A DNA stretch of 64,000 bases from Membranipora membranacea (Eukaryota; Bryozoa; Gymnolaemata; Cheilostomatida; Membraniporidae). Positions 5,745 to 61,900 of this stretch are shown piece by piece. Position numbers and translations under genes: made by a program. A model generated the notes under the pieces. It did not search any database and had not been told where the DNA came from. It saw only the letters and a list, made by a program, of their open reading frames with translations. Where the stretch lies: positions 24,118,001-24,182,000 of the forward strand of contig OU612072.1 of assembly GCA_914767715.1 (NCBI GenBank). The letters run 5' to 3'. How positions within the stretch are numbered: the first letter of the stretch is position 1; each line of letters opens with the position of its first letter.

Positions 5745-5800
5745 AAATCCATTGCTATTAAGCGAGAGGGCTGGGGTTCGATTCCCGCTCATGTCTTAAG
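5745..5800 (+). repeat. tRNA-like (B-box) fragment, possible SINE relic
   Basis: A perfect RNA polymerase III B-box consensus, GGTTCGATTCC, lies near 5,775 within a T-arm-like context. The same element is kept in the block A copy near 45,530. No A box or complete cloverleaf could be drawn, so this is more likely a tRNA-derived repeat fragment than a functional tRNA gene. Confidence 0.35.
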
Positions 5801-6319
5801 GGATTGACCCTGGCTTCTCCCTACCAAAGAACCAAAAAACTCAAATCAACTTCAACTAACAACTCTCACAAATCAACTGCTGGAACTCAGACCTCACTAG
5901 CACCAGCCCAATCATCACCTACCTCTCTAAATCTTGTTAGATAGTCAACAGCTTCAGTTACTAATCCTCTCATAACAGACCTCACTAACTCTTAGTAGTC
6001 CTCTCTTTTAGGCAGTCTGTGATATCTGAGATGTAAAATGTTCCCGGAGCAGCCCTAAGTTGTCACAAATGTGAATTTATTTCCGGTTATCAATCCACAC
6101 TTTAGAGAGTATTCTACTATCTCTAATACTCAGAATTGTACAACCCAACTCTACAAGCACTGCTTAGGATAATCCATCAACCTTTTTGCCAACACTCACA
6201 AAACAACCAACCAAAACTGAAAACATGAAAGCACAAAGAAAAGGTCACAAAACATGATATCAGGATATAAATGCCTACATTATTCACAAATGTTTATGCT
6301 TCCTGATAACTCATATAAA

Positions 6320-20900: not shown

Positions 20901-22301
20901 GGGTCAGAAACGTTCCCCTCATCCATATGATATATTAGTGCTATATAGGATTTATGTTAAAACTGGCTGAGGCATAGCCCTACACAGCTCACAGTGTGCT
21001 ACTGAATATTAATTCAACACACTTTCTGTTGAATTAATTAAAAAATACACGAAACAAAAACTTATAAATAAGAATGAATGTATGATTCACACCCATCTAT
21101 AGCTGTCTACCTGCCCCAGAGATTTGGCCTTGACTGAAATTTTCGCTGAAGATTGCCTCAATTGGTAGTGAAGTGCTCTGTCTTGTTTTGATATACTTGG
21201 TTTTAACTATTTAGAGTTGAAGTAAATGATTATTAAAACTTCAAAGATAATACTCTAACCTGATTCCAATACACCACATGAGAATATCGTCTTTCAACTG
21301 TTTGCCATTATTTATAGTGTCATTATTGCCATTATTATAGTGCAAAATTACATTTACTGTTTGCAGCATTACTAAGATGTCCTCACTGAAGCAGCTTCAT
21401 TTATCCAACAATTATCTGAGTAGATATGATAAGCTGGGCCAGACACTCTCAAAACTCACTAATCTGGAGTTACTTGATCTGAGCTGGTGTTATCTGAGGG
21501 AGATACCTGAGAGGTAATGTGTAATAGTTTGCTGTTCTTTTTTTCTTTTTCTAATAACTTAATACGGTGATGCGTATACCTGTTTCACTCTTTAATAACT
21601 CTTATATACACAAATTGTGACTTTCAACATTCCCCAATCAGTTCTTACTTTTGCGCTTGAGTAGTTGCTCGTGTTTGATGATGGTCTCTAGTTGTGGCTG
21701 TACAATAGCTTTGTTGATATACTTCATCAATATTTCATAATCAGTGTTGAGAAGGGAGACAGGCCTCCGATTAAGAGGGTAAACCATATCTCCTTCCTTC
21801 TGTATAAACACAGTTACAGCCTCTGTCATTGACTAAGGTATCATTTTGTTACCATTGATGTATTCAAATAGCTTTATTGAGAAGCAAACAGTATCATCAA
21901 AAAATAATACTTTGTGAAACCCAACTGGGAACTTTAATATGATAATAACAAAATATAAATTTGGACATAAATCAGTCAACAATATAAATTTGAATGCAAA
22001 TGTACAAGGTAGAAAGAGCCTGAGCAATTTCCTTACACTAAAACACAATTGAAAGTAACTAGAACCACTTAGGATTCTGAAGACATTTCAAGTAACTGCT
22101 TTATTAATGAGCTTGTTGAAATAATGCGAGAAATTTATTAACTGTATAGCACTGAGATACGGATGATGGTGGTAAAACACATAGCATGGCTATTTGTTGA
22201 GATATGCAATCAGTATAAGACTTCGTGTCAGGATCTGAATAAAGGCTAAAGATCTGGCAGCTTTTACATTATGCATTATACATACACACACACACACACA
22301 C

Positions 22302-22353
<52 letters not shown>

Positions 22354-25300
22354 TTGTAAGAGGGTCCAATTCAGACCACACACACACACGCACACACACA
22401 CACACATTCATTTCCCATTAACAATCTTGAATAACCCAGGCAAGCTGCTTGACAAAAGTCAAGTGTCCGCTATTTATGATTCTGAAGTTGTGATGAGAGA
22501 TGCGATCTAGCAACCATACATAAATAGCCATAAACTTGTTCAGGGTCAGAAATTTTGCCCTCATCCATATAATATATTAGTGCTGTATAGAATTTATGTT
22601 AAAACTGGCTGAGGCATAGCCCTACACAGCTCACAGTGTGCTACTGAATATTAATTCAACACACTTTCTGTTGAATAAATAAAAAAACAGACAAAACAAG
22701 AACTTATGAATAAGATGTGAATGAATGTATGATTCACACACATCTATAGCTGTCTACCTGCCCAGAGATTTGGCCTTGACTGAAATTTTCGCTGAAGATT
22801 GCCTCAATTGGTAGCGAAGTGCTCTGTCTTGTTTTGATATACTTGGTTTTAACTATTTAGAATTGAAGTAAATGTTAATTGAAACTTCAAAGATAATACT
22901 CTAACCTGATTCCAATACACCACAGGAGAATATCGTATTTCAACTGTTAGCCATTATTTATAGTGTCATTATTGCCATTATTATAGTGCAAAATTACATT
23001 TACTGTTTGCAGCATTACTAAGATGTCCTCACTGAAGCAGCTTCACTTATCCCACAATTACCTGAGTAGAGATGATAAGCTTGGCCAGACACTCTCAAAA
23101 CTCACTAATCTGGAGTTACTTGATCTGAGCTGGTGTAATCTGAGGGAGATACCTGAGAGGTAATGTGTAATAGTTTGCTGTTCTTTTTTTCTTTTTCTTA
23201 TAACTTAATACGGTGATGCGTATACTTGTTTCACTCTTTAATAACTTTTATATACACAAATTGAGACTTTCAACATTCCCCAATCAGTTTTTGCTTATGC
23301 GCTTGAGTAGAAGATTCTGTGAAACATTTCTATTTCGCTCAATAGCATGACCAATATGACATCACTTAAGCAGCTTAACTTATGCCAAAATATTCTGAAT
23401 AGAGGAAGTCAGCTGAGTATCTCAAGTTCGACAAATCTGAAGTTATTGAATATGAGATTGTGTACACAGACTAAATTCCTTAAGACAGGCAGGAAATTTT
23501 CAAAAGAAAGTGTTGGGCAATTTAAATCATGTCTTATTATCACATACATATCAATGACATGAGTTGGTATTTTCCCGTAATCACAAGTAAAGATAATTTT
23601 TTCCTCATTAGATTATTCGGCATTGAAAAGTGCATGATATATTGCAGCTATATCTATCATGATAATGTAGCTGTAGGTATGATAAATGCATATAACTCAT
23701 AACATCAAAATATTTCTTTTCCAGTATCCGCTTACTGACGGCTCTAGAGGAGTTAAGGTTATCAGATAATCATAAACTACAAACACTACCTGATGATATA
23801 GGAAGGATAAAGTCACTAAAGAAGCTAATTGTGATCAGTTGTGATCTGACTCAATTACCTGACAGGTGAGAATTCTCTCAATTGTTAGTCCTATGCTAAT
23901 GATACATTGGTGATATCACTTACTAGGAGCTAGCTGTACAATATTATTAGAACCTACAGACATTACATCATTATTAAGATTGATAAAGTTGACTGAAGAA
24001 TTTAGATGAGGGATGCGACCTGATTCATTTCCATCCTAGCTGAGTATGTTCCTCATTATCAATAGAATGATAGTGTTCTATTATGATCTTACTTAAACAA
24101 TAATTATGCATGTAATAGCAGAATTGTGGGGTTTCTGCCAACAAGGTTGTGGAATTAGGCTTCTGAAGCCCATAAACATTACCAAGTTGAACATTCTACA
24201 GCTTCTCATCATTGTCCGATTTTGTCAGCAGAATTGGTATAAAACATCAATGCCTGGTACAGTGATTAATCCGCTGATCAGGTGCAGTATGGTAAACTGT
24301 CCCCGCTCGAAAAAAACCCCGCACATTTAGCTTTAAGTCTTACATGCCCTCGCCAAATGCAGATTTCGAACAGCCACCAAAACTTTCTTTAGCTGAAATT
24401 TCAGACAACACTACTAGGACTATAATATAAAATGCAATGGAAAGATGATGAAATTTCAATGAGCATCACCAAAGAAAACAAAAATGCAATATCACCAATA
24501 TTAACTTATCTTATAAGTCTTATGACACAAAATTCAGAATTTCAAAATCGCCAAAAAGTTGCAAGAGTTAAACCCATAGACAAAACACACAACACTAGAC
24601 TGGACGCTGTGTAATTATAATTAAATCAAATTAATAAATAAATTAATAGGCTTTATAGAATTTGATACAGAATAGCAGGAGCAAGCTTCTGCAGCACAGG
24701 TAACAACCTTGTCTATATTATGTCTAACTCATCACTTATTTTGATTAAGCAAAAAGGGCAAAAAATATTAGTTAAACAGCATATCATACTTGCCAAGTTA
24801 TCTAAATTCAAAAGTTGGAGATTTCAATTTACGGCGATACTGCACGTCATCGCAATGCTCCAAGGTTGCAAACTTCCCGAGCAATCTACATGGGGGTTTG
24901 AGGGCAGTGTGATCTCCCAACAGGGTCCGGCATAAAACCTGGCCGCTGATGCTCTGAGAGCATTTCTAGCCACTAGGAATGGCTAAAAAACGCATATTTG
25001 ACGTATTAGTCTATATTCTGTCTAACTCATCACTTATTTCGATTGACCAAGACGGACAAAGAAATATTAGTTAAACAGTGATTGTAACTATAATGCTGAT
25101 ACTTAGTAACCATTGGAGCCTAAATTTATTAGATGTTATATTAGATGGGATGAGTGTAGTCTGTATGTGGTCATTATTTCTGCTCAATCAACTCGACTAA
25201 TGGTTGAATTAAAAAAATCAAGTATATGACAAAACAAAGAAATTGAATCCCCCCCCCCCATCCGCAACTTTGGTTAGATCAGGATAACATCTTGTAAAGG

Positions 25301-37300: not shown

Positions 37301-40300
37301 CCCCCTTTAAGGTAAACCTTATCGCCTTCCTTCTGGAAAAAGACCATTTCAGCTTCTGTCATTGACTAAGGCATCATATTGTTACCATTGATGTATTCAA
37401 ATACCTGTTTTGTATAGCAAAAAATATCATCAAAAATTACTTTGTAAAACTCAACTGGGAGTCTGTTAGGGCCTGGACTTTTGTTGGGCGCACTTTCAGA
37501 TACTATGTTTCACAATCCATCCTTCACATTCCTGCTCTCTTGACAGCTGACTTACAGTAATGGTCAAGTTTGAGATCACCCATTGGATTCCCTACTTACT
37601 TTTAGTATTTCATCTCTTTTTCTCCCCTGCTATTTTTCACACCAGTAATATTGTTCTTTGCTCTGCGCTGTCTGATCATATCAAAGAATGTGCTGAGCAC
37701 CTTTATCTTGTAGTTGCACATCTGGTCCTCACAGCTAATCCCTCAAACTTTTCTTCCTGCATCCCTTTCAAGCTATATTTAATCCTTCCTACATCGTGAC
37801 CTAGTTGATAAATCACAAGCAGATTCTTAAAATTTCCCAAAATAGGCCGAGAGTCATGAATAGTGTGACTCTTACTAGATTTGACGAATATGATCTGATT
37901 CACCTTTATATGCAAAGAACATTAGATAGTGCTAAAAAATTCTATTGCACTGTTTGGATGTCACACAGGACTAGAACAGTTTTGCAGGTTACCAAGGGAG
38001 ATAAATGCAAGTTCAGTATACTTACTATTCAGTCATGACTGCATCATTCCCATGCAGTTTAGAGACTAAATATGATTTAAGGTAAAAGGTACTGGTTATA
38101 CTCTTCAATATAATAATATTAAAACAAAAATTAGGACATTCAATGTCAATCAGTCAACAATATAAGTTTGAATGCAACTGTACAAGGTAGAAAGAACCTG
38201 AGCTATTTTCTCACACTGAAAACACAATTGAAAGTAACTAGAAATATTTAGGATTCTGGTCACATTCCAAGTAACTGTTTAATTAATGAACTTATTGAAA
38301 AAAAGCGGCACAATTTATTGACTGTATAGCATTGATAAAGATTTATGGATCGGTGGTAAAATACATAACATGGCTCTTCCGTGAGAAAACTCAGGCAAAC
38401 TGCTTGACAAAAGTCAAGGCTCAGCTATTTATGATTCTGAACCTGGTTGAGCAATCAAAGACGAGAAATTTGGTCGACCAACCATACATAAAGATCCATA
38501 CACCTGTTCAGGGTCAGATATGTTCATCTAATCCATATAATATATCATGTCTGTATAGTATTTAACTCACAACTGGCTGAGGCTTTGTCTGGCACTGCTC
38601 ACAGTGTGCTACTGAATATTAATTCAACAGGTTTTCTGCTGAATTAATTCAAACATATACAAAACAAAAATATATAAATAAGATATGTATGAATGAAAAA
38701 TTCATACACATCCAGCTGTCTACCTGCCCCATATCTATCCTAAAAAAACCTAGCTGTAGGCATAATAAATGCTCATAACTCATCACATAAAAATATTTCT
38801 ATTCCAGTATCTGCTTACTGCCAGCACTAGAGGAGTTAAAGTTATCAGATAATAAGAAACTACAGACATTACCTGATGATATAGGAAGGATAAAGTCACT
38901 AAAGAGGCTAATCGCTGACAGATGTGATCTGACTCAATTACCTGACAGGTGAGAATTCTCTTAATTGTTAGTCCTATGCTTATGATACATTAGTGACATC
39001 ATTTACTAAGAGCTAGCTATACAATATTATTAGAAACTACAGACATTACATCATTATAAAGATTGATATGAATTGATTGATATGATAATAACAAGTAAAT
39101 ATAATTTTTTTCCTCATTAGATTATTTGGAATAGAAATGTGCATGACATATTGCAACTATATCGGTCATGATAATTTAGCTGTAGGTATGATAAATGCAT
39201 ATAACTCATCACATAAAAATATTTCTATTCCAGTATCTACTTACTGACGGCACTAGAGGAGTTAAAGTTATCAGGTAATAAGAAACTACAGACATTACCT
39301 GATGATATAGGAAGGATAAAGTCACTAAAGAGGCTAATCGCTGACAGTTGTGATCTGACTCAATTACCTGACAGGTGAGAATTCTCTTAATTGTTAGTCC
39401 TATGCTTATGATACATTAGTGACATCACTTACTAAGAGCTAGCTATACAATATTATTAGAACCTACAGACATTACATCATTATAAAGATTGATATGAATT
39501 GATTGATATGATAATAACAAGTAAATATAATTTTTTTCCTCATTAGATTATTTGGAATAGAAATGTGCATGACATATTGCAACTATATCGGGCATGATAA
39601 TTTAGCTGTAGGTATGATAAATGCATATAACTCATAACATCAAAATATTTCTATTCCAGTATCTGCTTACTGACGGCACTGGAGGAGTTAAAGTTATCAG
39701 GTAATAATAAACTACAGACATTACCTGATGATATAGGAAGGATAAAGTCACTAAAGAGGCTAATCGCTGACAGTTGTGATCTGACTCAATTACCTGACAG
39801 GTGAGAATTCTCTTAATTGTTAGTCCTATGCTTATGATACATTAGTGACATCACTTACTAAGAGCTAGCTATACAATATTATTAGAACCTACAGACATTA
39901 CATCATTATAAAGATTGATATAGTTGACTGAGGAATTTAGATGAGGGATGTGTCCCGAGTCATTTCCATCCGAGCTGAGTATTTTCCTCATTATCAAAAG
40001 AATGATAGTTTTCTATGATGATGTTACTTAAACAATTATTATGCATGTAATAGCAGAACTGCTGGGTTTCTGCCAACAAGGTTGTTGAATTAGGCTTCTG
40101 AAGCCCATAAACATTACCAAGTTAAACTGTAGAATAGAATCAACCTGTGTATGATTGAAGAGATGCGTATATAAACTGCAACTTCAGTAAAAACCAGAGC
40201 AAGCCAAAAATACTGCTAGCACAGTGCTCACTAACAACCAACTGACTCATCTAGAGCTATATGTACACACAGTTATTCACTATACAGTAAAAAGCAACAT

Positions 40301-55300: not shown

Positions 55301-58300
55301 GCATTGGTTATGGTGAAAAATATATTGTATATATTATCGCGGTATTTTAATTGTGTCAAAATCACCGATGATGCACCATTTAACTACATATTTTAGGTGA
55401 GCCTACAGGCGATTCAAATATTTATTTTATTTTGACATTTTTATGAATGTGACTGATGGGAAGGGGTTTGCAACATCACTCTCATTTAGGACAACTCTGA
55501 AAAAGATGAAAATACATTCCGGTTTCACTCATAATTGCCCAGCAATAATCCCCTCCAGATTATTAGTTTATTTTAACATCGACGACTTACCTAGTGGTAC
55601 ATTGATCCACATTTATGCTGTCAAATTCTCAAATATATTGGCTCCCAGCTGCAGATGCATTCATTGGATGCCGCGTATACTGTAGTTGAACAAATAACTG
55701 AACTGATCTCGGTATTTGGAATGCAACAAATTTGACCAAAATGACACCAAAATAAGATAAATAATCATAATTATCTGATTAGTTTAATATACACATAAAT
55801 ATCTCATCTTATTCAGTATAAGAACCATGAGGAGACTGAAACAGCTGATGTTGCAAGGAAATAACATCAAACAGTTACCTGAATGGATCGGTGAACTAGT
55901 GTCTCTAACTTATCTGGACCTTGATGAAAACTTTGATCTCATCCGATTACATTCCAGTATTAGTTCGCTGAATCTCTCCACATTCAGCTGTAAGAAGTGC
56001 ATCAAGCTAATAGAGCCACCCTATGCTGTGTGTGAAGGAGGTTGGAGCGACATAAAACACTACTACACAGACATGGAAAGTGGAAAAGAAGTCATCTCTC
56101 TATCACCTATTGTCCTCATTGGTAGAAAAGAGGCAGGGAAGTCTTCTCTTCTAAGTGTCATGAAGCATAAGTTCGAAGCTCGAAGTCCACATGATGCAAG
56201 CGTTGAAAAAACAAAGGTTTTTGGTTTTGAGAAGGTACAGATTCAAGGACCTGATTCAGAGAAAAGTGATGTCCAGGTTATTGACTTTGGTGGTGATGAA
56301 ATTTACCATCACGGCTACCACCTGACAATGCGTGAAGACTGCATACCAATAGTCGTGGTGAATATGTCAGAATTCGAAGAAATAGCCAAAAAGCGAGGAC
56401 CACGTGAAGCCACTAGAAAGGTGGCATTTAATTGGGTCGCACACCTTGGCTCAGCTGTTCAGAAGATACAGGACCCAATCGTAGTTCTCACCCACCATGA
56501 TGAATATAAAACTGATTCAGTCCTGTATAAGAAACTAGAATTGGATTTCACACACACTCTACAAAATTTGACTGATGAGCTTCTAAAAGGAAACAGTCAA
56601 ATAGGAAGGCTCGCTGTTCGTTCTGACGGGGATCATGCTTCATCTGTGTTCAGCCAGAAAAATGTGTTCTCAGTAGGCTTTTCTCAAGATGACAAAGTCT
56701 ATTCCACAGAATTCAAGAGGCTAGAGAGACACCTCTACAACAGAGTAGAGAGTTCAAAACGCTCCATTCCCAGTAGTTGGCTTTCTCCCTTCACCGAGAA
56801 TAATGACAGCTATCTCAAATATGACCTGATCTCTCCTTCTCTGAAGCACCCTCAGACTGTTTTTGACTTCATGAAGAGATCTGGTCAGATATTGTGGTAC
56901 CCAGATTCCTCTACCCCTAGCCTGGCAAATACTGTGTTCCACAAAATACCAGTTTTAACAGAGCTCATAGGATCATTGTATGGTCACACCATGTCTCCTA
57001 ATATCATCATGCAGCAATCAGCAGATGAAAGTATGACTTCAGGACCCAGCAGCTATCAAAGAAATGGTATCATGAGCAAAGCTGACCTTCATTCCCGCAT
57101 TTCTGACCTATCCTGCAAAATACCTTCTGATATCGCTATTGCGCTTTTGGTAAAATTCAAACTTCTGTTTGGCCCAACAGTTATCAACAATCAGGATGAA
57201 TGCTACCTGATGCCATACTTCATGCCTGAACATTCATTTTCTCATCGTAGAGCTGAGATTCAGCTATATGCATCAATGAACTTTATCGGATTGAAGGCGC
57301 CTGACTATGCATTTCATCAGTTAACAGTTTCATTTCTCGAAAATATGGATGAAAGCTATCAGATTTTCCCCTATGGGAATGGAGCAGCTGCAAAGTTGCG
57401 AGCACCAACCAGATCTGGCAATGAGAAGAGGGAGCAGTTTGATGTTCATTTCATACATGAGAGAGATGCACAAAGGGCAATCATCAGAGTTGACGGATGT
57501 GAAACTAATATTTCTGAATGTTGGGCAAAGTTTTCCACCCTCCTCAAAGTGTTATCAGAGAAAGCAAAATCAACATGGCCTGCCATAAAGATAGATTATG
57601 ACATTCCTTGCCCCCACTGTCTCATTCTTGGTAGGCCAAATCCAGCACTGTTAGAGTTCCAGGCGGTAACGGCTCATCCGCAAAGACTGACTACAGAGAC
57701 TGCTGAATGTGGCGATGAAACGGATATACCAGCTTTGCTCAGAGTACCATGTGAGTTCATCACTATTTTGCCTTCTTCGTTTCAACAACGCTCTTCTTTG
57801 TTGAATATCTGTGTACAACTAGCACTCACTTTTCTAATTCATGAACTAGATGTTTTGGACACATCCTCAGTACTTATGTACTTATCTTGTTTGCGTTGGT
57901 TTGTCATCTTGGTACAAAAAATAGAGGTAGTGATTACTGACCTGATGTGTATTCTAGGTACTTACCCAGGGGAGGAGGGGATCAGATTACTCACAGACTA
58001 TATCAATAAGAAGGGGCTGAATGAGGTGACAGCAATCACACAGATTGTTTCTGAGAGAGAAAAGGAGATCGATATGCATCCTGTCTTTCAAACATCATTG
58101 TACAGAGCATCCCAAATGGACAAGGTAATTAGCAGCTAGAATTCAAGGAAATTTAAGTGGCTCAATAAGACTGCAGATATTTTTATGTGCACTTGCCTTT
58201 ACCACGCCTAGAGTGATCAGTTGCATACAATGAATGTGTTATTTCAAAATCTAGTGGTAAAAACATAACTGCTGCAGTTATCTATATGTTGCCTTTACTT

Positions 58301-61300
58301 GCAGGTTTATGTGATGACTACTACACGAGGAAGAGCTCTTATAATCAACAATAAAACAGATCGAGAAGGATCACAATATGACTATGCTAACATAAAGATG
58401 ATGTTAGAGCGATTCGGTTTTGTCATAAGTGATTTGTCTGAAGACAAAGAATGGCATGCAGAGGTACTTATACCGTTTGTTTGTATTATGGCTTTCATAT
58501 TTCAGGCTTTGAGCCTCTCTTGTTAGACATTATTTTATGGTTATGCCATTGAAAATCATACGATTGCTGAAATTTGCAAAATACCTGATGATCAATGCCA
58601 GTTCCGATTAAATTTTACTGGAGTTTCTTTGAAGGATCTGATAATGAAGATCCATAATGAGACTCAGTATGTGGATAGAAGGACTGGTACTTCAGTACAT
58701 GCTAATCTAGGAATGTTTGTACTGGTGCTGATGAGTCATGGAGGAAGTGGTTCCATCTCTGTTGGTAACGAGACGATCAGATTGGTGGATATCTACAGAC
58801 TTCTCTCAACTCAGAACTTTCCAGCTATGAGAGGAAAACCAAAGATGATTGTACTACAATCATGTTCAGGAGGTCGTATTCTTATGTATTTTTTCTGTAC
58901 AACTATGTAATGAACATCACTTGCTTTGAAAATCAGATGCATCCTTACCTTATTTCTCTTACCAAATACTGAACCATAAAAATCTCTTTTTCAAACGCAA
59001 AATGCACTAGCAATATAATCTTCTTGTGCATGCACAGCCACCATATTACATATATTATTAATAAATGATTTGTATATGCTCACTCTACTCCCTTCAGCTA
59101 ATATCATGAAAGTGGATCCTATTGTTACACTGAGTGAAGGATCAGCAACCAAGAGAAGAAGAAGTAAGAGATCAACTCACTATATAAAAAAACTTCAATT
59201 AAAAACCTGCAAAAGGCAAATCTTTGTTAACTTGGTATATAAAAAAAGCGAACAAAAATCCAGATTTGGCAAAATTTTTGAGCCGTTTGTGGTCTTGAGA
59301 CGCAAGAATTTTTTCATCATTATGTTACATCTGATGAATCAAGGATTACGATAAACATCTTATCAACGATCTTATATACCACTGAGAATGAAAACATCTG
59401 TGTGGTTTTTTTTAGGAAGTGGTGGGAGTGGTTTGACCTCCTGTGTCAGTAGCTATTTTTTGAGATATTTGTTTCATCATAAATCTCATCGTTGAAACCT
59501 ATGGACCCATCTATCTATCTTTCCATCTATAGACTATATGTTTAGAACCCTCCAACAGCTCTGCCCTCTTGCTATTCAGAATGGGTTCTGGTTCTCACAC
59601 TCTCTTAAGTTCAGATATCTCTTCTTGCCAGATGTTTGTTTTGTTGACAGAGAAATTGTGCAATTAATCTAAATTGTTCTCTTCTTCCTATTCTTAAATA
59701 ATTGCTCACTAACTATTTTTTCCGATTTCCAGTACAAATACCTCAGGACATGGCAGCTGATCCTGTTCCTGCCAATCCTAGAGATATACCGAGAGAAGAT
59801 AGCCACTTATGTATGGATGACCTGATTGTCCTCCATCCAAGTTTCTCAGGTGAGAAGACATTGAACGCTATTCATGCAGCGATTAGCTAATTATTGCATT
59901 CAACAGAAAAACCATAGTGATATCAATGCCTAATTTTTCACTGCCCATATAAATTACAGGAATAAACTGTTTATTTGCGTGGCTGATTTTTGTGTTATAT
60001 CAGGTGTTTCCTAATAAACATAAACTCAAACACCCCAAAGGTGAGCAGATACCTAAGTGCATAGCATACCCTTTATTTAAAGTGAAGGATGAAATTCCTA
60101 CTATAAATAAGCAAGCCATTTCCCCTATAATAGTTATTGAGAAATTTTTGAAAAATTTCATCGATTCATTTTAGGCCAATTATATTGAGTCAGCATTTTC
60201 ATCAAATGTTTTTATCCCTGCTCTTTTGCCCTTTGCCCAGAGTATGCCGCCTTCAGAGATGAAAATTACGGTTCAGTGTTCATCAGAGCTTTCGTAGCAA
60301 CATTCTATCAACAGGCTGGAAGTAAAAATGTCGAAGAACTCAGTAAACTGGTTAGTGCTTCACCAAACTCTGATGACTCATCGACTAAATTTGACTCACT
60401 TGATTTGACTCACTAGATTAGACCCACTGAATAATTTGATTTACACTTCAATGTAAAGTAATATGGTAACAAATCAGCTGCTCATGTTTTTCAAAGGTCA
60501 TTAAATTTACAGTGATATACAAAACAGATTATAACTCTCATATTGATAGCTTTACAAAAAATAAACATGTCAATACGTTAAATTTAATTTTCAACTAACG
60601 CTTACTTTATATTCTGAAGTTATATCTTATTGTAAAGTTTTTCCGTCGTCGAAATAAGGCATGGTCTCTAATTTAGGATAACCATCTTGATCCTCTTTTT
60701 GAACCAGATCAAAAATAATTAAATCGTGGAAAAACCAGGGCAAGGGGATTTCAGACTGATTCCTGCTGGTGTCTAATACATTTTTGACAAACACTTGCTC
60801 TATTTTGTAAAGTATTTCAATCTTTGACATAAGACATCGTCAATACCAATCATGCTCCTCTCTTTGAACATATCGAAATAACCAAAACATTACAATTGCT
60901 CCTTTTTTGAAAAAAAAGGACAAGACAATGTCAGCAAGATTCCCTGCTGCTGGTGTCTAATGCCTGATATTAATCTGAACCAGTCAATCAGTTTAATTTT
61001 CCTTAATGTTTAGATCCAATCAGTTGTGAGAAACTCAGCACCTGCTGAAGGAAGACCTCAACGTCAGCTTCCTGTCACCATCAGTACATTCACTAATGAT
61101 AGGAAGCTCTATCTATCACCAGGAGTTAATATGAGAACTACTCATCCAGATGAGCTGGTCAATCCTGTATCACCTAATCCTGCTAAGAGTGAGGTGGTGT
61201 TTCAAGGTCAGTCAGGTTCTTCAATATTTGTAGAAGGCTTAAAATCATATCCCACATGCCAACAACCTGCTTCTTTTGTTTTCCCCTGTTTTCTAATTAC

Positions 61301-61900
61301 TAAGTAAATTGGAAATAAATCTATACCAAGTTACAAGGAAGGCATCAGCTTTCCATTGTGCAGTCATGCTATAACCATCAGTTGTTGGTGCCAAGACCTT
61401 AAGCTAATTCACGAAACTAAATACACTAAAAATTTATATATTTCGATACATCTATGTGAATTTCACTGAAGTGATACTGTCCTTTTTGGTCCTGCTGGTT
61501 ATGCCACTTGCATCAAGGTCAAGCAATAAAAGGTTATGTATCACTCCAGCTTGGGTTGATATTTTGGTGAATAATCGTATAACGCGGCATGCTTTCTATT
61601 TCTATTTTATGATACAGAAGCCACACGTAAATTACTTAGTCTAGTGGTTTTTTTCATTTTGGAACTACCAAGCAATTAAAGCATTACACTTTTGCAACCA
61701 CAGAAAAAGCATACAAGTCGTACAATGTGTCAAACATTTAATAATACGTTTATCAAGAGATGTTAGGTTTGAATATTTTTTTTTAAATCGCAAGGCTTAA
61801 TCAAACGCTGGTAATATAGTTTTTCAATTTCTTTTTTTTCACAGGCCAAAATAGTCGTGGAGATCTTAATTTCGTCGTGCAGAAATCAGGCAACCACTAG
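7496..61900 (+). CDS. LRR-Roc-COR-caspase gene (ROCO-family protein with C-terminal caspase), 5' partial
   Basis: Twenty exons listed separately below join into one frame: 4,801 coding nt, i.e. the last base of a split Ser codon plus 1,600 codons including the stop. Every junction is GT-AG and phases agree throughout. Order with residue numbers counted from 7,497: LRRs about 1-640, interrupted by a non-LRR stretch at about 48-154; Roc GTPase about 680-850 (P-loop Gly 689); COR to about 1,230; caspase about 1,288-1,545 (His1375, Cys1417); tail of about 50. Known biology: Roc-COR is a tandem GTPase/dimerisation module of ROCO proteins such as LRRK1/2, and caspases are Asp-directed cysteine proteases. 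Inference: the LRRs sense, Roc-COR switches or oligomerises, and the caspase is the output, all in one chain. No start codon, signal peptide or membrane segment was identified, so the 5' end is probably upstream of the window. The exon chain was assembled by eye, and alternative splicing among the symmetric LRR exons is likely. Confidence 0.85.
8620..8975 (-). pseudogene. LINE reverse-transcriptase thumb-region remnant
   Basis: On the minus strand this aligns with the better-preserved ORF at 27,943-28,260, which reads like the segment after the RT catalytic domain of a non-LTR retrotransposon. Frames here are broken by indels. The paralogous position in both block B copies shows the insertion predates the duplication. 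Confidence 0.5.
9120..9245. repeat. AT-rich microsatellite tract
   Basis: Two runs of (TA)n separated by AT-rich sequence lie directly upstream of the acceptor of the 9,256 exon. Such a tract can shift splice-site use, but nothing here shows that it does. Confidence 0.8.
9256..9320 (+). CDS. Short exon 2 (65 bp, phase 2 to 1)
   Basis: It is flanked by a TTTAG acceptor and a TAG|GTAAGTTC donor. It starts with the T that completes a Ser codon from an LRR exon, then encodes M-K-S-M-T-E-L-Q and ends SLPDWIG with the Gly codon split. It fits between the 7,496 exon and the 15,538 exon in frame. The PGSLPDWIG end resembles the LPEWIGEL turn of a true LRR, so it may be the truncated first part of an LRR cassette. 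The exon is small and is supported by phase logic and splice consensus only. Confidence 0.55.
9358..10672. mobile_element. Fold-back (long inverted repeat) element
   Basis: The left arm, about 9,358-9,760 on the + strand, matches the reverse complement of about 10,280-10,672 with scattered differences. A stretch including the words ATCGTTGGAAAG and TGGTGCAGATA occurs in both arms. The central part of about 500 bp has no recognisable transposase. Short ORFs in the arms (9,463-9,702 + and 10,126-10,419 -) come from the repeated sequence and are not supported as genes. It is likely a non-autonomous DNA element or an inverted duplication within the intron. Confidence 0.65.
10673..13026. other. 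Intron sequence without recognised feature
   Basis: AT-rich intronic DNA between the fold-back element and the hairpin cluster. ORFs of 72-104 codons occur (10,879, 11,931 and 12,417) but have low complexity or no recognisable family and no splice support. A weak tRNA-like stretch near 11,690-11,745 was considered and not called. Confidence 0.6.
13027..13240. repeat. Perfect hairpin cluster with flanking direct repeats
   Basis: A 21-bp perfect stem (13,047-13,067 with 13,076-13,096, 8-nt loop) is followed by an 18-bp perfect AT-rich stem (13,202-13,219 with 13,223-13,240, 3-nt loop). The 20-base word beginning GATACCAAGGGCGCG occurs at 13,027 and again at 13,172, enclosing the first hairpin. 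A doubled GAGGATAGGT unit precedes the second copy. Perfect palindromes in decaying intron DNA suggest recent origin by template switching or a small fold-back element. Confidence 0.85.
13577..15062 (+). repeat. CACACACCCA-type minisatellite, about 1.5 kb
   Basis: Tandem 8-12 bp units rich in CACACACCCA fill this interval. A higher-order repeat of about 436 bp is visible: the block beginning near 13,686 recurs near 14,122 with the same unit variants. Long open frames of Thr-His-Pro on + and Cys-Val-Gly on - follow from the repeat having few stop-forming words. They are not genes. Confidence 0.97.
15538..15793 (+). CDS. Exon 3 (256 bp, phase 1 to 2), non-LRR segment entering LRRs
   Basis: Acceptor ATTACAG, donor TTCAG|GTTAGG. 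The first two bases complete a Gly codon begun at 9,320. The 85 codons are unlike the other cassettes: a hydrophilic, Glu/Arg-rich first half ([12 protein letters not shown], then [10 protein letters not shown]), then an LRR-like end ([18 protein letters not shown]). I do not recognise a named domain in the first half; it may be a linker between two LRR arrays. It is the only long exon that changes phase, which makes it a fixed joint between the 7,496 cassette and the repeated cassettes downstream. The frame stays open past the donor for a further 15 codons or so. Confidence 0.75.
15950..16096 (+). CDS. LRR exon 4 (147 bp, phase 2-2)
   Basis: Acceptor TTACACAG, donor AG|GTGAGTT. Forty-nine codons with two LRR cores: [17 protein letters not shown] and [18 protein letters not shown]. 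It is separated from the preceding exon by a 156-bp intron, among the shortest introns in the gene. It is the most divergent member of the 147-bp class. Confidence 0.85.
16482..16526 (-). repeat. tRNA-derived SINE 5' fragment
   Basis: On the minus strand the sequence has a good pol III A box (GTGTGGCTGAATGGTTAGC) with a D-loop-like context, but no B box follows. It resembles the heads of the SINEs at 53.9-54.1 kb and is probably truncated. Confidence 0.45.
17091..17237 (+). CDS. LRR exon 5 (147 bp, phase 2-2)
   Basis: Acceptor TGTCGGCAG, donor AG|GTAATG. It encodes [18 protein letters not shown], then [18 protein letters not shown]. The same cassette grammar, a TxMSxLKQL start and an LREIPE end, is shared with the exons at 18,437, 21,367 and 23,013. 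Confidence 0.88.
18437..18583 (+). CDS. LRR exon 6 (147 bp, phase 2-2)
   Basis: Acceptor GTTTGCAG, donor AG|GTAATG. LRR cores are [18 protein letters not shown] and [18 protein letters not shown]. It starts with A rather than C or T, making the split codon Arg instead of Ser. Its flanks (about 18,155-18,430) recur at about 35,940-36,260, but that copy has no exon after the matching sequence. Confidence 0.88.
18938..19737 (-). pseudogene. LINE ORF2 fragment (RT catalytic end to C-terminus)
   Basis: Read on the minus strand from 19,737: [10 protein letters not shown], then [10 protein letters not shown] (the RT catalytic Asp pair), then a thumb region with [10 protein letters not shown] and [19 protein letters not shown], and a C-terminal part ending in a 213-codon open stretch at 18,938. 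The motif order is that of CR1/jockey-type non-LTR retrotransposons. It is 5' truncated next to a GAT microsatellite and lies in the intron after LRR exon 6, antisense to the host gene. Confidence 0.85.
19738..19775 (+). repeat. (GAT)n microsatellite
   Basis: Several uninterrupted GAT units, flanked by interrupted ones, sit at the junction of the LINE fragment and duplication block C. Confidence 0.85.
19778..20695. repeat. Duplication block C, copy 1
   Basis: Nearly identical to 34,482-35,375. The first 650 bp or so differ at only a few positions, while the last 250 bp have more substitutions and indels. It includes a 7-bp tandem (TAAAGTG)n near 20,355 and sequence resembling the 3' coding end of a LINE. 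No host exon. Confidence 0.9.
20770..21600. repeat. Duplication block D, copy 1 (includes an LRR exon)
   Basis: Collinear with 22,406-23,300, including the LRR exon and both intron flanks. A third, exon-less partial copy is at about 38,388-38,740. The two complete copies are a tandem duplication of an exon with its flanks. Confidence 0.9.
21367..21513 (+). CDS. LRR exon 7 (147 bp, phase 2-2)
   Basis: Acceptor GTTTGCAG, donor AG|GTAATG. Cores are [18 protein letters not shown] and [18 protein letters not shown]. It is a recent duplicate of the 23,013 exon, with only a few changed residues (for example N-to-H, Y-to-D and Y-to-N). The changed positions include variable, solvent-side LRR positions. 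Confidence 0.9.
21638..22000 (-). pseudogene. L1/Tx1-type LINE RT fragment
   Basis: On the minus strand it reads [12 protein letters not shown], then [25 protein letters not shown] and [18 protein letters not shown], the fingers-region motifs of L1-clade RTs (a plain-strand match to the larger fragment at 36,698-37,930). It is broken by frameshifts and truncated. Confidence 0.75.
22281..22405 (+). repeat. (CA)n microsatellite
   Basis: Two CA-repeat tracts with occasional CG interruptions, separated by a unique spacer of about 30 bp, lie just before block D copy 2. Confidence 0.95.
22406..23300. repeat. Duplication block D, copy 2 (includes an LRR exon)
   Basis: Tandem copy of 20,770-21,600. 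Similarity ends near 23,300, where copy 1 continues into an L1-type fragment and copy 2 into the decayed LRR exon at 23,346. Confidence 0.9.
23013..23159 (+). CDS. LRR exon 8 (147 bp, phase 2-2)
   Basis: Acceptor GTTTGCAG, donor AG|GTAATG. Cores are [18 protein letters not shown] and [18 protein letters not shown]. It is the sister of exon 7. Confidence 0.9.
23346..23492 (+). pseudogene. Decayed LRR exon
   Basis: An acceptor (CTCAATAG) and an LRR start ([18 protein letters not shown]) are preserved, followed by [11 protein letters not shown], but the LREIP ending has degenerated and there is no GT donor at the expected place. If it were included, translation would run into a stop near 23,560. 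It is probably a dead cassette that is skipped between exons 8 and 9. Confidence 0.7.
23725..23865 (+). CDS. LRR exon 9 (141 bp, phase 2-2)
   Basis: Acceptor CTTTTCCAG, donor AG|GTGAGAAT. Cores are [17 protein letters not shown] and [16 protein letters not shown]. It is the first of the 141-bp subtype, closest to the three tandem cassettes at 38.8-39.8 kb. Its intron flanks also match theirs. Confidence 0.9.
24190..24620 (+). pseudogene. LINE fragment (pre-RT region)
   Basis: Matches 40,371-40,800, where it leads into an RT domain. It reads [18 protein letters not shown] and later [18 protein letters not shown], with frameshifts. It is truncated before the RT core. Its position after an LRR cassette parallels that of the second copy. 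Confidence 0.65.
25378..28258. repeat. Segmental duplication block B, copy 2
   Basis: Collinear with 6,320-8,960. Relative to copy 1, about 390 bp containing the LRR exon is missing at 26,463, and about 250 bp of extra sequence is present nearby (26,630-27,160). The right end is cut off by the Gmr1-like element. The stretch 24,620-25,377 before it holds only AT-rich DNA and a short poly-C run at 25,249. Confidence 0.8.
27943..28260 (-). pseudogene. LINE RT thumb-region remnant
   Basis: An open stretch of about 110 codons on the minus strand includes [24 protein letters not shown] and [15 protein letters not shown], similar in layout to the thumb region of the 18,938 LINE fragment ([27 protein letters not shown]). 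It is interrupted on its 5' side by the insertion point of the LTR element. Confidence 0.7.
28271..29345 (+). pseudogene. gag: Gmr1-like gag
   Basis: The N-terminal part is a long charged coiled coil with Gln/Glu/Lys heptads and a locally duplicated AKGGSGG unit. It is followed by a capsid-like region ([18 protein letters not shown], then [19 protein letters not shown]) and a CCHC zinc knuckle, [14 protein letters not shown], near 29,239-29,280. Stops occur near 28,732 and 28,972, and a frameshift near 28,985. The start codon region is missing. Confidence 0.85.
29346..29675 (+). pseudogene. Gmr1-like aspartic protease
   Basis: The retroviral-type protease active site appears as RDTGCS near 29,603-29,620 in a beta-rich context ([20 protein letters not shown]). 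An in-frame TAA near 29,674 interrupts it; the downstream [10 protein letters not shown] is the usual end of the protease fold. The sequence then leads directly into a linker and the integrase rather than an RT. Confidence 0.75.
30115..31329 (+). pseudogene. Gmr1-like integrase
   Basis: The HHCC zinc-binding N-terminus ([19 protein letters not shown] then CQSCDICQ) is at about 30,160-30,300. The DDE catalytic core follows, with Asp in AVDIVGP (about 30,379), Asp in SDQGTQF (about 30,541) and a Glu in the frame-shifted VEKFNGT near 30,650. The C-terminal GPY/F module contains [13 protein letters not shown] near 31,064-31,100. Stops near 30,334 and 30,430 and a frameshift near 30,630 inactivate it. 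An ordinary gypsy integrase would lie downstream of RNase H. Confidence 0.88.
31385..32350 (+). pseudogene. Gmr1-like reverse transcriptase
   Basis: It begins with [15 protein letters not shown], a typical gypsy pre-RT motif, then [43 protein letters not shown] and MPFGMVTSG. After a frameshift near 31,875 the catalytic NYIDDILVH box is at about 31,930-31,955. [16 protein letters not shown] connection follows. In-frame stop TAG near 31,450. Confidence 0.93.
32351..32760 (+). pseudogene. Gmr1-like RNase H
   Basis: [35 protein letters not shown] and [11 protein letters not shown] give the Asp/Glu/Asp residues of the Ty3-type RNase H, ending ADYFSRID. In-frame stops at about 32,400 and 32,541. 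No integrase follows; the coding region ends here. Confidence 0.9.
32794..33155 (+). repeat. 3' LTR of the Gmr1-like element with preceding polypurine tract
   Basis: It begins TGTCACAAA and ends TTTGTGACA, a terminal inverted repeat bounded by TG...CA. A purine run (AAAATAGGGGG, 32,782-32,792) lies immediately upstream. A TATAAA motif at about 32,938 and an AATAAA at about 33,024 are in promoter and polyadenylation positions. A 9-bp tandem (AAATAGCCA type) spans about 32,840-32,890. Only this LTR copy is in the window. Confidence 0.8.
33156..34126. other. Intron sequence without recognised feature
   Basis: AT-rich DNA. A short diverged direct repeat (a CTGCAG-containing stretch followed by GATGAATGATCTGA) occurs near 33,390 and 33,530. 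No exon or TE coding similarity was seen. Confidence 0.6.
34127..34480 (-). pseudogene. LINE ORF2 C-terminal fragment
   Basis: An 86-codon minus-strand ORF (34,161-34,421) reads [31 protein letters not shown] and [13 protein letters not shown]. Related but more degraded sequence is inside block C (near 20,225-20,345 and 34,930-35,050). The layout suggests the C-terminal end of a non-LTR retrotransposon ORF2; this is tentative. Confidence 0.45.
34482..35375. repeat. Duplication block C, copy 2
   Basis: Near-identical to 19,778-20,695 in its first two thirds. It contains the same 7-bp (TAAAGTG)n tandem near 35,050. 35,376-35,940 after it holds only AT-rich sequence with a small AGTAGAGTAA-type repeat near 35,450. 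Confidence 0.9.
35940..36260. repeat. Duplication block E: exon-less copy of LRR exon 6 upstream flank
   Basis: Matches 18,155-18,430, the sequence just before LRR exon 6, and diverges precisely where the polypyrimidine tract and exon would begin. Downstream similarity to the intron after exon 6 resumes near 36,275. The cassette itself appears deleted. Confidence 0.75.
36558..36694. repeat. Long imperfect inverted repeat (fold-back)
   Basis: Arms of about 60 bp face each other. The inner 21 bp are perfect (36,598-36,618 with 36,632-36,652, 13-nt loop), and outer parts such as TTTCAGTCAAGGCC and GGCCTTGACTG also pair. The arm sequence resembles TTGGCCTTGACTGAAATTTT near 21,125 and 22,772, so one arm is the ordinary intron sequence and the other an inverted copy. 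It truncates the L1-type fragment that follows. Confidence 0.85.
36698..37930 (-). pseudogene. L1/Tx1-clade LINE ORF2 fragment
   Basis: Read on the minus strand from 37,930: a pre-RT region ([20 protein letters not shown]), then [34 protein letters not shown], then a 153-codon open stretch with [36 protein letters not shown] and [18 protein letters not shown]. These are the fingers and palm motifs of L1-type RTs. The palm Asp of the usual SLDQEKAFD is Gly here. It stops before the catalytic FADD box. Confidence 0.8.
38100..38760. repeat. Partial copy of block D flanks without exon
   Basis: 38,220-38,370 matches 22,045-22,195, and 38,388-38,740 matches 20,805-21,115 and 22,435-22,760. The sequence then switches abruptly to the flank of a 141-bp LRR cassette, so the 147-bp exon of block D is absent in this copy. 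Confidence 0.75.
38808..38948 (+). CDS. LRR exon 10 (141 bp, phase 2-2), tandem unit 1
   Basis: Acceptor CTATTCCAG, donor AG|GTGAGAAT. Cores are [17 protein letters not shown] and [16 protein letters not shown]. It differs from units 2 and 3 at a few codons (for example DRCD versus DSCD). Confidence 0.92.
39234..39374 (+). CDS. LRR exon 11 (141 bp, phase 2-2), tandem unit 2
   Basis: Acceptor CTATTCCAG, donor AG|GTGAGAAT. Cores are [17 protein letters not shown] and [16 protein letters not shown]. It begins SIYLL where units 1 and 3 begin SICLL. Confidence 0.92.
39660..39800 (+). CDS. LRR exon 12 (141 bp, phase 2-2), tandem unit 3
   Basis: Acceptor CTATTCCAG, donor AG|GTGAGAAT. Cores are [17 protein letters not shown] and [16 protein letters not shown]. 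Its AG end joins the T at 55,817 to give Ser and continues in frame into the Roc-COR exon across a 16 kb intron. Confidence 0.92.
40371..41975 (+). pseudogene. CR1/jockey-type LINE ORF2 remnant
   Basis: In order on the + strand: [18 protein letters not shown] (palm entry), [35 protein letters not shown] and FINDLI, a lost catalytic box (reads LRMTQTF where YADDT is expected), [16 protein letters not shown], then a C-terminal part ending near NLFNSY. Many stops and frameshifts. A shorter relative is at 24,190-24,620. It is in the sense direction in the 16 kb intron. Confidence 0.85.
41976..42190. other. GC-rich patch ending in poly-T
   Basis: A short G-rich stretch, unlike the surrounding AT-rich intron, directly follows the LINE coding remnant and ends in a T run near 42,178. 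It may be the LINE 3' untranslated region. 42,191-42,895 has no recognised feature. Confidence 0.5.
42896..46070. repeat. Segmental duplication block A, copy 2
   Basis: Same orientation as 1-6,320 but about 3 kb shorter because 1,485-4,478 is not represented. It includes the tRNA-like B-box fragment near 45,530. No exon recognised. Confidence 0.85.
46227..46740 (+). repeat. About 120-bp tandem repeat, four units and a partial fifth
   Basis: Units starting near 46,227, 46,348, 46,471, 46,586 and 46,708 share a core containing CTCGTCTCATTACAG and ACGTACACATGTACACAGG. Unit length varies from about 115 to 123 bp. The two ORFs across it (80-82 codons) simply translate the repeat. Confidence 0.93.
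46945..47205 (+). repeat. Degenerate short tandem array with ATGCCAT/ATACCAT core
   Basis: The words ATAATGCCAT, AAATACCATT and AAAATGCCAGT recur every 10-18 bases across about 260 bp with short variable spacers. It is satellite-like and non-coding. Confidence 0.8.
47206..49042. other. Intron sequence, possible LINE remnants
   Basis: No exon recognised. An 89-codon minus-strand ORF at 47,949-48,218 (start [12 protein letters not shown]) matches no family I recognise. 48,500-49,000 is less AT-rich, has short minus-strand ORFs, and may be 3' flank or untranslated sequence of the LINE that ends at 49,043. Confidence 0.4.
49043..51776 (-). pseudogene. CR1-like LINE ORF2 (endonuclease-reverse transcriptase)
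   Basis: Endonuclease motifs: [24 protein letters not shown] and [12 protein letters not shown] motifs: [85 protein letters not shown] and LFADDSLAF (about 49,790). A C-terminal part includes [16 protein letters not shown]. Frameshifts near 51,450, 50,455, 49,810 and around 49,350-49,560, and an in-frame stop at about 51,095. Confidence 0.92.
51822..52883 (-). pseudogene. CR1-like LINE ORF1 (PHD-like zinc finger protein)
   Basis: The 272-codon open part has a Cys/His cluster ([23 protein letters not shown]), as in PHD-type ORF1 proteins of CR1-like LINEs, then a charged coiled-coil region ([15 protein letters not shown]) and an RNA-binding-like end. An in-frame TAG at about 52,065 separates the last 75 codons or so, which continue in the same frame to 51,822. 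The true start may be the Met of MPETPASS rather than the most upstream Met. Confidence 0.85.
53820..53945 (-). repeat. tRNA-derived SINE copy 1
   Basis: Minus strand: an A box (GTGGCTGAGCGG, about 53,918-53,929) and a B box (GAGTTCAAATTCT, about 53,884-53,896) with tRNA-like spacing, followed by a non-tRNA tail. It shares the CGCTGAAGCTT leader with copy 2. It is not a functional tRNA because the acceptor stem does not pair. Confidence 0.65.
53985..54140 (-). repeat. tRNA-derived SINE copy 2
   Basis: Minus strand: A box GGCGTGGCCGAGTGGCTAG and B box GATTCAAATCC, Ser/Leu-tRNA-like, then a tail containing AAGGAGGTGGACGG that resembles the tail of copy 1. Same orientation as copy 1 and about 190 bp away. 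Confidence 0.65.
54141..55816. other. Intron 3' part, no recognised feature
   Basis: Mixed-composition intron with less AT than average at about 54,850-55,280. An 80-codon ORF (55,443-55,685) has no recognisable domain and no fitting splice sites. 52,884-53,819 is similar: 52,884-53,000 may be the LINE 5' untranslated region, and the rest shows nothing. Confidence 0.55.
55817..57750 (+). CDS. Exon 13: last LRRs, Roc GTPase and COR domain (1,934 bp)
   Basis: Acceptor TTATTCAG; donor CCAT|GTGAGT, ending in phase 1. It begins with LRRs ([35 protein letters not shown]) and a capping segment. Roc domain: P-loop GRKEAGKS at 56,121-56,144; a G3-like DFGGDE at 56,283-56,300, where Roc domains usually have DxxGQE; and the Roc-type G4 motif THHD at 56,490-56,501. 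COR follows from about 56,680, with a conserved hydrophobic region ([32 protein letters not shown]) and then a less conserved beta-rich part to about 57,740. In the family, Roc binds GTP and COR dimerises. The Gln-to-Asp change in G3 could affect hydrolysis. The exon lacks internal introns, unlike the LRR part. Confidence 0.93.
57751..57957 (+). other. In-frame, stop-free 207-bp intron
   Basis: Donor GTGAGT and acceptor GTATTCTAG are good, and flanking phases match (phase 1, TGT Cys rebuilt). The length is 69 codons with no stop in frame, so retention would insert about 69 mostly hydrophobic residues between COR and the caspase without breaking the protein. The hydrophobic translation is unlike the neighbours, so I favour an intron. 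Confidence 0.7.
57958..58124 (+). CDS. Exon 14: COR-caspase linker (167 bp)
   Basis: Phase 1 to 0. It encodes [20 protein letters not shown] and then a Glu-rich helix-like stretch ([14 protein letters not shown]) ending ASQMDK. Donor CAAG|GTAATT. The segment sits where initiator caspases have a prodomain; it could form a short helical linker, but I do not recognise a CARD or death domain. Confidence 0.8.
58305..58463 (+). CDS. Exon 15: caspase p20, first part (159 bp)
   Basis: Acceptor TTACTTGCAG, donor CAGAG|GTACTT; phase 0-0. It encodes [16 protein letters not shown], the first caspase strand, then [12 protein letters not shown], whose Arg (58,362) sits at the S1-pocket Arg64 position of caspase-3, then [15 protein letters not shown]. 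The loop between INN and the Arg is shorter than in caspase-3. Confidence 0.92.
58635..58872 (+). CDS. Exon 16: caspase p20, catalytic His and Cys (238 bp)
   Basis: Acceptor TTCTTTGAAG, donor CAGGAG|GTCGTA; phase 0 to 1. It encodes the helix [13 protein letters not shown], the strand [13 protein letters not shown] with catalytic His (58,737-58,739), and [12 protein letters not shown] with catalytic Cys (58,863-58,865). His and Cys are 42 residues apart, the spacing of caspase-3. The canonical QACRG pentapeptide reads QSCSG, with the S1-pocket Gln kept and the Arg after Cys replaced by Ser. Confidence 0.95.
59098..59163 (+). CDS. Exon 17: p20 end and inter-subunit linker (66 bp)
   Basis: Phase 1-1. 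It encodes [19 protein letters not shown] followed by Arg residues. Acceptor CCCTTCAG, donor AAGAA|GTAAGAG. It forms the end of p20 and start of the linker; the basic KRRR run resembles a short nuclear-import-type cluster, but this is weak. Confidence 0.75.
59733..59849 (+). CDS. Exon 18: inter-subunit linker and p10 start (117 bp)
   Basis: Phase 1-1. A Pro/Asp-rich linker ([20 protein letters not shown]) is followed by [13 protein letters not shown], the strand that opens the caspase p10 subunit. Candidate Asp cleavage points are in MAAD|P and, better, RED|S before HLCMDD. Donor CTCAG|GTGAGA. Confidence 0.88.
60241..60350 (+). CDS. Exon 19: caspase p10 core (110 bp)
   Basis: Acceptor TTTGCCCAG, donor AAACTG|GTTAGT; phase 1 to 0. 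It encodes [19 protein letters not shown], the p10 signature. The Arg (60,255-60,257) lies at the position of caspase-3 Arg207 in SWR; Ser-Trp is replaced by Ala-Phe. With Gln in QSCSG and the exon 15 Arg, the Asp-binding S1 pocket is complete. Confidence 0.92.
61014..61206 (+). CDS. Exon 20: caspase p10 end and tail (193 bp)
   Basis: Phase 0 to 1. [16 protein letters not shown] then [19 protein letters not shown] gives the last p10 helix and strand (caspases usually have a Q-x-P segment followed by a strand ending K-x-L-Y-F-x-P-G). A Pro/Ser-rich tail ([18 protein letters not shown]) follows. Acceptor AATGTTTAG, donor CAAG|GTCAGT. Confidence 0.9.
61845..61900 (+). CDS. Exon 21: terminal coding exon with stop
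   Basis: Acceptor TTTTTTTTCACAG after a strong polypyrimidine tract. It completes the split Gly codon and encodes [17 protein letters not shown], then TAG at 61,898-61,900. If it were not used, exon 20 would read on and stop soon after its donor. The numbering counts the skipped decayed cassette at 23,346 as no exon; with exon 13 as the Roc-COR exon, the gene model has 20 coding exons plus a label offset of one from exon 13 onward. Confidence 0.75.

Follow-up and report, generated by a model that had tools for sequence, protein, structure and literature searches.

In the LRRK proteins, of which LRRK2 is the Parkinson's protein, leucine-rich repeats (LRRs), a Roc GTPase and a COR domain are followed by a kinase and WD40 repeats, while animal initiator caspases, such as caspase-8 and caspase-1, are normally recruited via death-fold adaptors to separate platforms, such as Apaf-1 and the NLRs. 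In prokaryotes, on the other hand, Kaur et al. (2021, PMC8195603) describe proteins in which fast-evolving N-terminal LRRs precede an AP-GTPase (the DAP-kinase type, i.e., Roc), a COR domain and one of at least 24 effectors, a caspase among them; such proteins are present in several copies per genome and are predicted to counter invaders. Here, we describe a gene of the bryozoan Membranipora membranacea with the identical order of domains, the effector likewise coming after COR. Namely, in a stretch of 64,000 nucleotides (C8:24,118,001-24,182,000, hereafter the window; C8 is contig OU612072.1), a run of nine exons on the + strand at 55,817-61,900 codes for LRRs, Roc, COR and a caspase, and almost certainly forms part of one single LRR-Roc-COR-caspase gene. 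The best explanation of this gene, to which we assign a probability of roughly 0.68, is an intracellular ROCO receptor-protease, in which cassette exons of LRRs would serve as the sensor, Roc-COR would follow, and a p20/p10 caspase would take the place of the kinase of LRRK1 and LRRK2.

The likeness to the prokaryotic proteins has its limits. In particular, the caspase found here resembles the animal caspase-8, CED-3 and caspase-4, and the LRRs are laid out as cassette exons. What is more, prokaryotic paralogs of one genome carry differing effectors (PMC8195603), while all the bryozoan copies read past COR carry a caspase, a count in which all but 4 had been picked for having one and which leaves 24 loci unread. 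Closer in taxonomic terms are animal proteins in which Roc-COR is likewise linked to immune or death modules: TIR in sea anemones (actiniarian NG1, PMC5094078) and Aplysia (PMC9334734), and CARD or death domains in Trichoplax (PMC4104024). However, these carry TIR or adaptor-type modules, and the portions of the three papers at our disposal describe no caspase fusion. As for the LRRs, the nearest parallel comes from brown algae, whose ROCO genes have phase-2 LRR exons in shuffled arrays before Roc-COR, the proposal being that immune diversity arises as exons are shuffled and alternatively spliced (Teng et al. 2024, PMC11378527). Phase-2 LRR exon arrays also lie 5' of Roc-COR here; however, the algal exons are 72 bp long with one LRR each and LRR-ROC-COR is the sole architecture, whereas the bryozoan exons measure 141 or 147 bp, encode about two LRRs and belong with a caspase. 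Finally, a 2026 paper on sponge NLRs lists CASc as well as COR for the domains shown in its NLR figure, and its accessible text does not describe a ROCO-caspase (PMC12909245). The initial annotation of this DNA had presented the fusion as possibly unreported. Indeed, going by titles and the starts of abstracts in the open-licence literature, an animal ROCO-caspase does not seem to have been reported, which does not in itself show its absence from print; the architecture as such, however, is not unheard of, since the same order is published for bacteria (PMC8195603).

Results

The initial annotation had named nine exons, and all of them (A to I, Table 1) are present with GT-AG borders, matching phases and a joined frame that stays open to the TAG. 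Exon A is a single exon of 1,934 nt, which starts inside an LRR at phase 2 and contains Roc with the motif THHD and then COR. Only one boundary had to be revised. Namely, exon D had been started at 58,602, but an AG is missing there from the close paralogs L013 and L014, while an AG in the right phase just before 58,635 is shared by the window, L033, L013 and L014 (L015-L017 are misplaced in this alignment and uninformative). For this reason, the first model was dropped in favor of 58,635, most likely the true start judging by these paralogs. The 2-nt gaps that exon D shows against L013 and L014 fall 5' of the corrected start; such gaps are also seen against the same two paralogs in the first stretch compared, at the end of exon A. 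With exon D corrected, exons A to I code for 1,012 amino acids.

Is this one gene? The evidence comes from the rest of the genome (339 Mb on 18 contigs), where a search for the same architecture found an expanded family, so that the gene in the window is no one-off. At least 75 Roc-COR loci were found (83 matches, merged; best 75 of 220 candidates), alongside at least 145 caspase matches, merged to 134 loci (best 140 of 515 candidates). Among the matches listed, 47 of the 75 Roc-COR loci are followed within 20 kb by a caspase on their own strand, at a distance of 0.58-2.1 kb in 46 cases and of 9.9 kb in one, as compared to 1/75 with a caspase upstream within 20 kb and 0/75 with one on the opposite strand. 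Given this contrast, the downstream linkage is far above chance. Four of the 28 Roc-COR loci that have no listed caspase were read, and caspase exons follow in all four, which weakens the idea that the 28 truly lack one and brings the number of loci with a caspase just downstream to at least 51 (47 by coordinates and 4 by reading). The missing caspases are probably largely a consequence of scoring only the best candidates in both searches.

Seen from the side of the caspases, a long Roc-COR match precedes the caspase on its own strand in 18 of 20 stretches, while in L025 there is just a short LRR/Roc piece and in L032, which was excluded from later family counts, no such match. Note that these 20 are not a random sample: they were chosen from the 145 caspase matches because they looked multi-exonic, and three were already known to have COR upstream. 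Among the matches listed, 87 of the 134 merged caspase loci have no Roc-COR partner; some of these, such as L018-L020, do have one by reading, while others, such as L032 and perhaps an array on contig C1, may belong to other caspase genes. The array in question, C1:33.2-36.7 Mb, consists of 21 caspase-like matches on one strand with no nearby Roc-COR among the matches listed, and is perhaps another caspase fusion family. The matches listed also include a cluster of 20 Roc-COR loci at C8:18.2-24.3 Mb, the gene in the window among them.

The alternative to a fusion would be two neighboring genes, an LRR-ROCO ending after COR and a caspase with a short prodomain, which would begin at an ATG in exon B. 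Exon B does contain an in-frame ATG (EIDMHP), the exon joins are read from DNA, and the 207-nt intron between exons A and B has no stop in the window copy, so that a ROCO protein read through into it could stop at 58,139. However, this open intron is probably a matter of chance; compared with L033, L013 and L014, it contains 4- and 8-nt indels, while exon B contains none. What is more, in 17 of 17 aligned paralogs exon A stays open up to a GT donor of phase 1, and the phase is the same in 4/4 more, making this donor common to all 21 paralogs checked. The Roc-COR/caspase pair and its order are kept on several contigs, down to an identity of about 23% (the relatives in alignment A1 span 89% to 23%), and, across 18 loci, the distances in Roc-COR correlate with those in the p20 core (r of 0.70, with 0/5000 permutations as high). 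Alignment A1 leaves out L017 (changed P-loop), L023 (broken frame) and L025 (short LRR/Roc piece), the latter two also being left out of the distance comparison. Finally, there is no AATAAA within 55,817-58,349. Since order, spacing and splice phase are all kept across the family, two independent genes are highly improbable, and the claim that ROCO and caspase form one gene holds up. A sensor, a switch and a protease in one gene are, in other words, strongly supported, the basis being a conserved multi-copy family rather than RNA.

How far do the domains themselves bear this out? In Pfam searches, the first model matched Peptidase_C14 (2.8e-24), Roc (1e-6), LRR_8 (2.7e-5) and, at an E-value of just 0.14, COR-B. 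In the 1,493-residue spliced protein obtained by adding the upstream LRR exons, the values are 1.9e-24 for C14, 1.6e-6 for Roc and 6.2e-42 for LRR_8, and the C14 match spans positions 1-229 of the 233 in the profile, i.e., p20 and p10. The LRRs, Roc and both caspase subunits, as originally proposed, are thus recovered by profile search, and the ROCO motifs GxxxAGK[ST], D[FL]GG and THxD are all found. COR is the weaker part of the proposal, with no Pfam entry at E<=0.1 in the 1,493-residue protein. Over 17 aligned family members, Roc matches in all 17 at E<=0.01, COR-A in 8/17 and COR-B in 2/17, the COR matches all being weak. It is the predicted structure that speaks for COR: when the Roc-COR exon is modeled with AlphaFold, Foldseek matches the model to LRRK1, LRRK2 and bacterial Roco proteins, and exon A would accordingly fold as a Roc-COR, with COR directly after Roc, as in a ROCO protein. 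As modeled, the 3' end of exon A coincides with the end of COR-B, the same end as that of COR-B in LRRK, which would put the caspase in the position of the LRRK kinase. In this sense, the protein resembles LRRK1 and LRRK2 in its LRR-Roc-COR, in its predicted fold and in where COR-B ends, and differs from them in having a caspase after COR; no kinase domain was matched after COR at E<=0.1 in the 1,493-residue protein.

Among solved caspases, those closest in sequence are CED-3, caspase-8 and caspase-4 (E of about 1e-6), and the gene in the window has both Arg and the Gln of the Asp-specific S1 pocket, which we take to be formed by two Arg and one Gln. Like initiator caspases, it has p20 and p10 and a His-Cys dyad, and is presumably activated by proximity. 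Unlike in the inflammasome and the apoptosome, its nucleotide switch is Roc: the 1,493 residues read, which do not include the 5' end of the gene, contain no Pfam match to NACHT or NB-ARC at E<=0.1, nor any match to a death-fold domain.

Upstream of exon A, the window contains ten LRR exons between 7,496 and 39,800, all on the + strand, 141 or 147 nt long, of phase 2-2 and with AG|GT donors, each encoding about two LRRs. Joined to exons A to I, they give the 1,493 amino acids with no internal stop. The adjoining 19.8 kb 5' of the window contain 8 further complete LRR exons of the same two types and 1 partial one; the initial annotation was right about the LRRs but made their extent too small. 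In these 19.8 kb and in positions 1-55,816 of the window, tblastn returned no Roc-COR or caspase piece, so that no other partner for the array is in sight in this region. Phase, order and orientation all suggest that the LRR exons are spliced onto exon A. The array grows through segmental duplication, and variation among the exon copies is greatest at some of the x positions of the LxLxxN motifs. As for individual duplications, positions 1-6322 are in pieces 91-95% similar to 42,896-46,075, a large segmental duplication within the array, and 6,319-8,972 matches 25,373-28,271.

Table 1. Exons of the probable ROCO-caspase gene in the window, with the LRR exons upstream of it.
Feature	Position	Strand	Remarks
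LRR exon	7496..7636	+	141 nt, phase 2-2; Pfam LRR
LRR exon	15950..16096	+	147 nt, phase 2-2
LRR exon	17091..17237	+	147 nt, phase 2-2
LRR exon	18437..18583	+	147 nt, phase 2-2
LRR exon	21367..21513	+	147 nt, phase 2-2
LRR exon	23013..23159	+	147 nt, phase 2-2; duplicate of the 21,367 exon
LRR exon	23725..23865	+	141 nt, phase 2-2
LRR exon	38808..38948	+	141 nt, phase 2-2; 1st of a 426-bp tandem triplet; Pfam LRR
LRR exon	39234..39374	+	141 nt, phase 2-2; 2nd of the 426-bp triplet
LRR exon	39660..39800	+	141 nt, phase 2-2; 3rd of the triplet; phase fits exon A; Pfam LRR_4
Exon A	55817..57750	+	last LRRs, Roc GTPase (P-loop), COR-A, COR-B (COR as modeled); acceptor phase 2, donor phase 1
Exon B	57958..58124	+	linker; final residues QMDK align to the start of the caspase-8 catalytic region
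Exon C	58305..58463	+	p20 start
Exon D	58635..58872	+	p20 core: catalytic His (SHGGSG) and Cys (QSCSG); most likely start, corrected from 58,602
Exon E	59098..59163	+	p20-p10 linker
Exon F	59733..59849	+	linker and p10 start
Exon G	60241..60350	+	p10
Exon H	61014..61206	+	p10 end
Exon I	61845..61900	+	final residues and TAG stop at 61,898-61,900

Are the copies intact? In the best alignments of 23 paralog loci, all 23 have the catalytic His and Cys, and 21 have the Gln of QxC; as for the Arg residues of the S1 pocket, the one in p20 is found in 21/23 and the one in p10 in 19 of the 20 loci aligned at that position. These alignments allowed E-values up to 10, and single assignments can be wrong. 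Apart from L017 with its changed P-loop, the aligned copies retain the P-loop, D[FL]GG and THxD. Taken from sequence, caspase activity appears likely in most copies.

One might suspect, of course, that the family is real but the copy in the window a pseudogene in decay. There are transposons within the array, other copies are broken (L023 in exon A, L013 in exon G), and the LRR part of exon A shows a dN/dS of 1.0-2.1 against five close paralogs, albeit with few changes. However, exon A as a whole shows a dN/dS of 0.43-0.52 against the same five (a sixth, L031, is saturated), all 19 exons in the window are open with GT-AG borders, and the exon stretches compared with L033 are free of indels, while 7 of 8 introns have them. 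We therefore regard decay of this copy as very unlikely. In recent copies, it is this absence of indels, and not percent identity, that tells exons from introns. One could also read the high values in the LRR part as diversifying selection. Among close pairs of LRR exons, dN/dS exceeds 1 in 3/30 (up to 1.9), with one undefined and the others below 1, but the changes are very few, and such values give only hints of it.

Discussion

Three things about this family are surprising: the effector seat is taken by an animal-type p20/p10 caspase, the family is large, and its LRR cassettes are arranged in arrays. It is best read as a set of self-contained death or immune receptors, and we consider it rather probable that the protein is an immune or recognition receptor in which activation of the caspase is gated by nucleotide. 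Roc-COR proteins are known to change between monomer and dimer with their nucleotide state, via COR, and initiator caspases to be activated by proximity. In the same vein, the LRR horseshoe would keep the protein inactive, and binding of a ligand at the LRRs would relieve this inhibition. Ligand and GTP state together could then alter the arrangement of Roc-COR or its state of dimerization, COR-mediated dimers would join two caspase units, and these would activate by proximity and cut their own p20-p10 linker after Asp, with the active caspase going on to cut substrates involved in death or immunity. Activation of the caspase through COR-driven proximity is plausible, given the predicted fold and the conservation of the catalytic and P-loop residues.

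One can also imagine that the caspase is simply freed by self-cleavage, with LRR-Roc-COR only anchoring or silencing it and GTP having no part in activation. Known initiator caspases have Asp residues before p20 and in the p20-p10 linker, and by sequence so does the protein studied here. However, a mere anchor would need neither the P-loop nor D[FL]GG nor THxD, all of which are kept outside the P-loop of L017, and this possibility is, in our view, distinctly unlikely.

What such a receptor would recognize is a separate question. A family of this scale, with LRR cassettes that duplicate and have variable residues, suggests that diverse signals of non-self or damage are recognized. Allorecognition is another task of large receptor families, and the fusion could be real and yet function in self/non-self recognition between individuals, in cell turnover or in symbiont control, with the caspase signaling without killing. 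In favor of such a role, no domain names a ligand, and PMC8195603 discusses cell suicide in the allo-incompatibility of colonial animals; nothing speaks directly against it, the architecture being equally compatible with all these uses. Taken together, we consider such a role unlikely, though less so than simple self-cleavage. More tentatively still than the receptor-protease itself, one may think of a single-polypeptide inflammasome, a large animal receptor family whose LRR cassettes, through duplication and alternative splicing, would provide many surfaces for recognition; each of these would feed into a GTP-gated Roc-COR dimer switch and from there into its own caspase, with no adaptor or platform, a solution arrived at independently of NLRs and in parallel to bacterial conflict systems; we see this as an attractive, if somewhat doubtful, extension.

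Several observations weigh against the receptor-protease that we favor. First, the first exon and the start codon of the gene were not found, and the joins between exons A and B and between the LRR exons and exon A are read from DNA. In particular, the last LRR exon is separated from exon A by a 16-kb intron with LINE-like inserts. Second, COR stays under the Pfam cut-off in the window member, and the protein contains no domain that would name its ligand. Third, identity fails to separate exons from introns in recent copies (against L033, 0.91-1.00 for exons and 0.92-0.98 for introns). Fourth, some copies are damaged: L023 has a broken frame in exon A, L013 a 1-nt indel in exon G, and L034 changed S1-pocket residues, while L017 has lost the P-loop glycine to arginine, its caspase catalytic residues being kept, and is perhaps a nucleotide-blind copy. 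Finally, GTP binding, dimerization and protease activity are all predictions from sequence and fold.

If the receptor-protease is nonetheless real, one and the same molecule would both detect and execute, and an animal would have death receptors built on a GTPase switch, as has been proposed for bacteria. The organism would gain a second, NLR-independent repertoire of receptors, in which the LRRs come as exon cassettes, as they do in brown algae. What is more, such a protein would allow a direct test of the control of Roc-COR over an output domain, which is relevant to LRRK2, with a simple protease read-out replacing the kinase.

Relatives outside animals

No relative was found when IMG/VR and GTDB contigs were scanned with the exon A protein (GTDB also with alignment A1). 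A search of plasmids returned four cyanobacterial records with Roc-COR, and the four annotated Roc-COR proteins contain no caspase at a Pfam E<=0.01 (for L003, this refers to the COR-bearing coding sequence only). One of these plasmids encodes an LRR-Roc-COR protein (L004:3236-6148) with the effector-associated domain EAD1 after COR, in agreement with the published bacterial systems.

Other features of the window

The window also contains several mobile elements. An LTR-retrotransposon-like coding region occupies 28266-32800 (+), with its frame split over several open reading frames (ORFs), an RVT_1 match (2.7e-12) at 31,454-31,915 and, by eye, zinc-knuckle-like and integrase-like stretches. 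A LINE-like element lies at 49815-52895 (-), inside the 16-kb intron before the Roc-COR exon, with a reverse transcriptase (RVT_1, 7.2e-23) at 49,818-50,489, and two further ORFs, at 18,941-19,777 (-) and 40,478-41,700 (+), look reverse transcriptase-like by eye. Directly 5' of an LRR exon, at 15522-15854, there is an ORF of 111 amino acids, which has no Pfam match above cut-off and a similar counterpart at the matching place upstream of the window (L038:2930-3262). Finally, positions 13550-15100 are a satellite with an 8-nt unit and a strong strand skew, in which several frames are open over long stretches.
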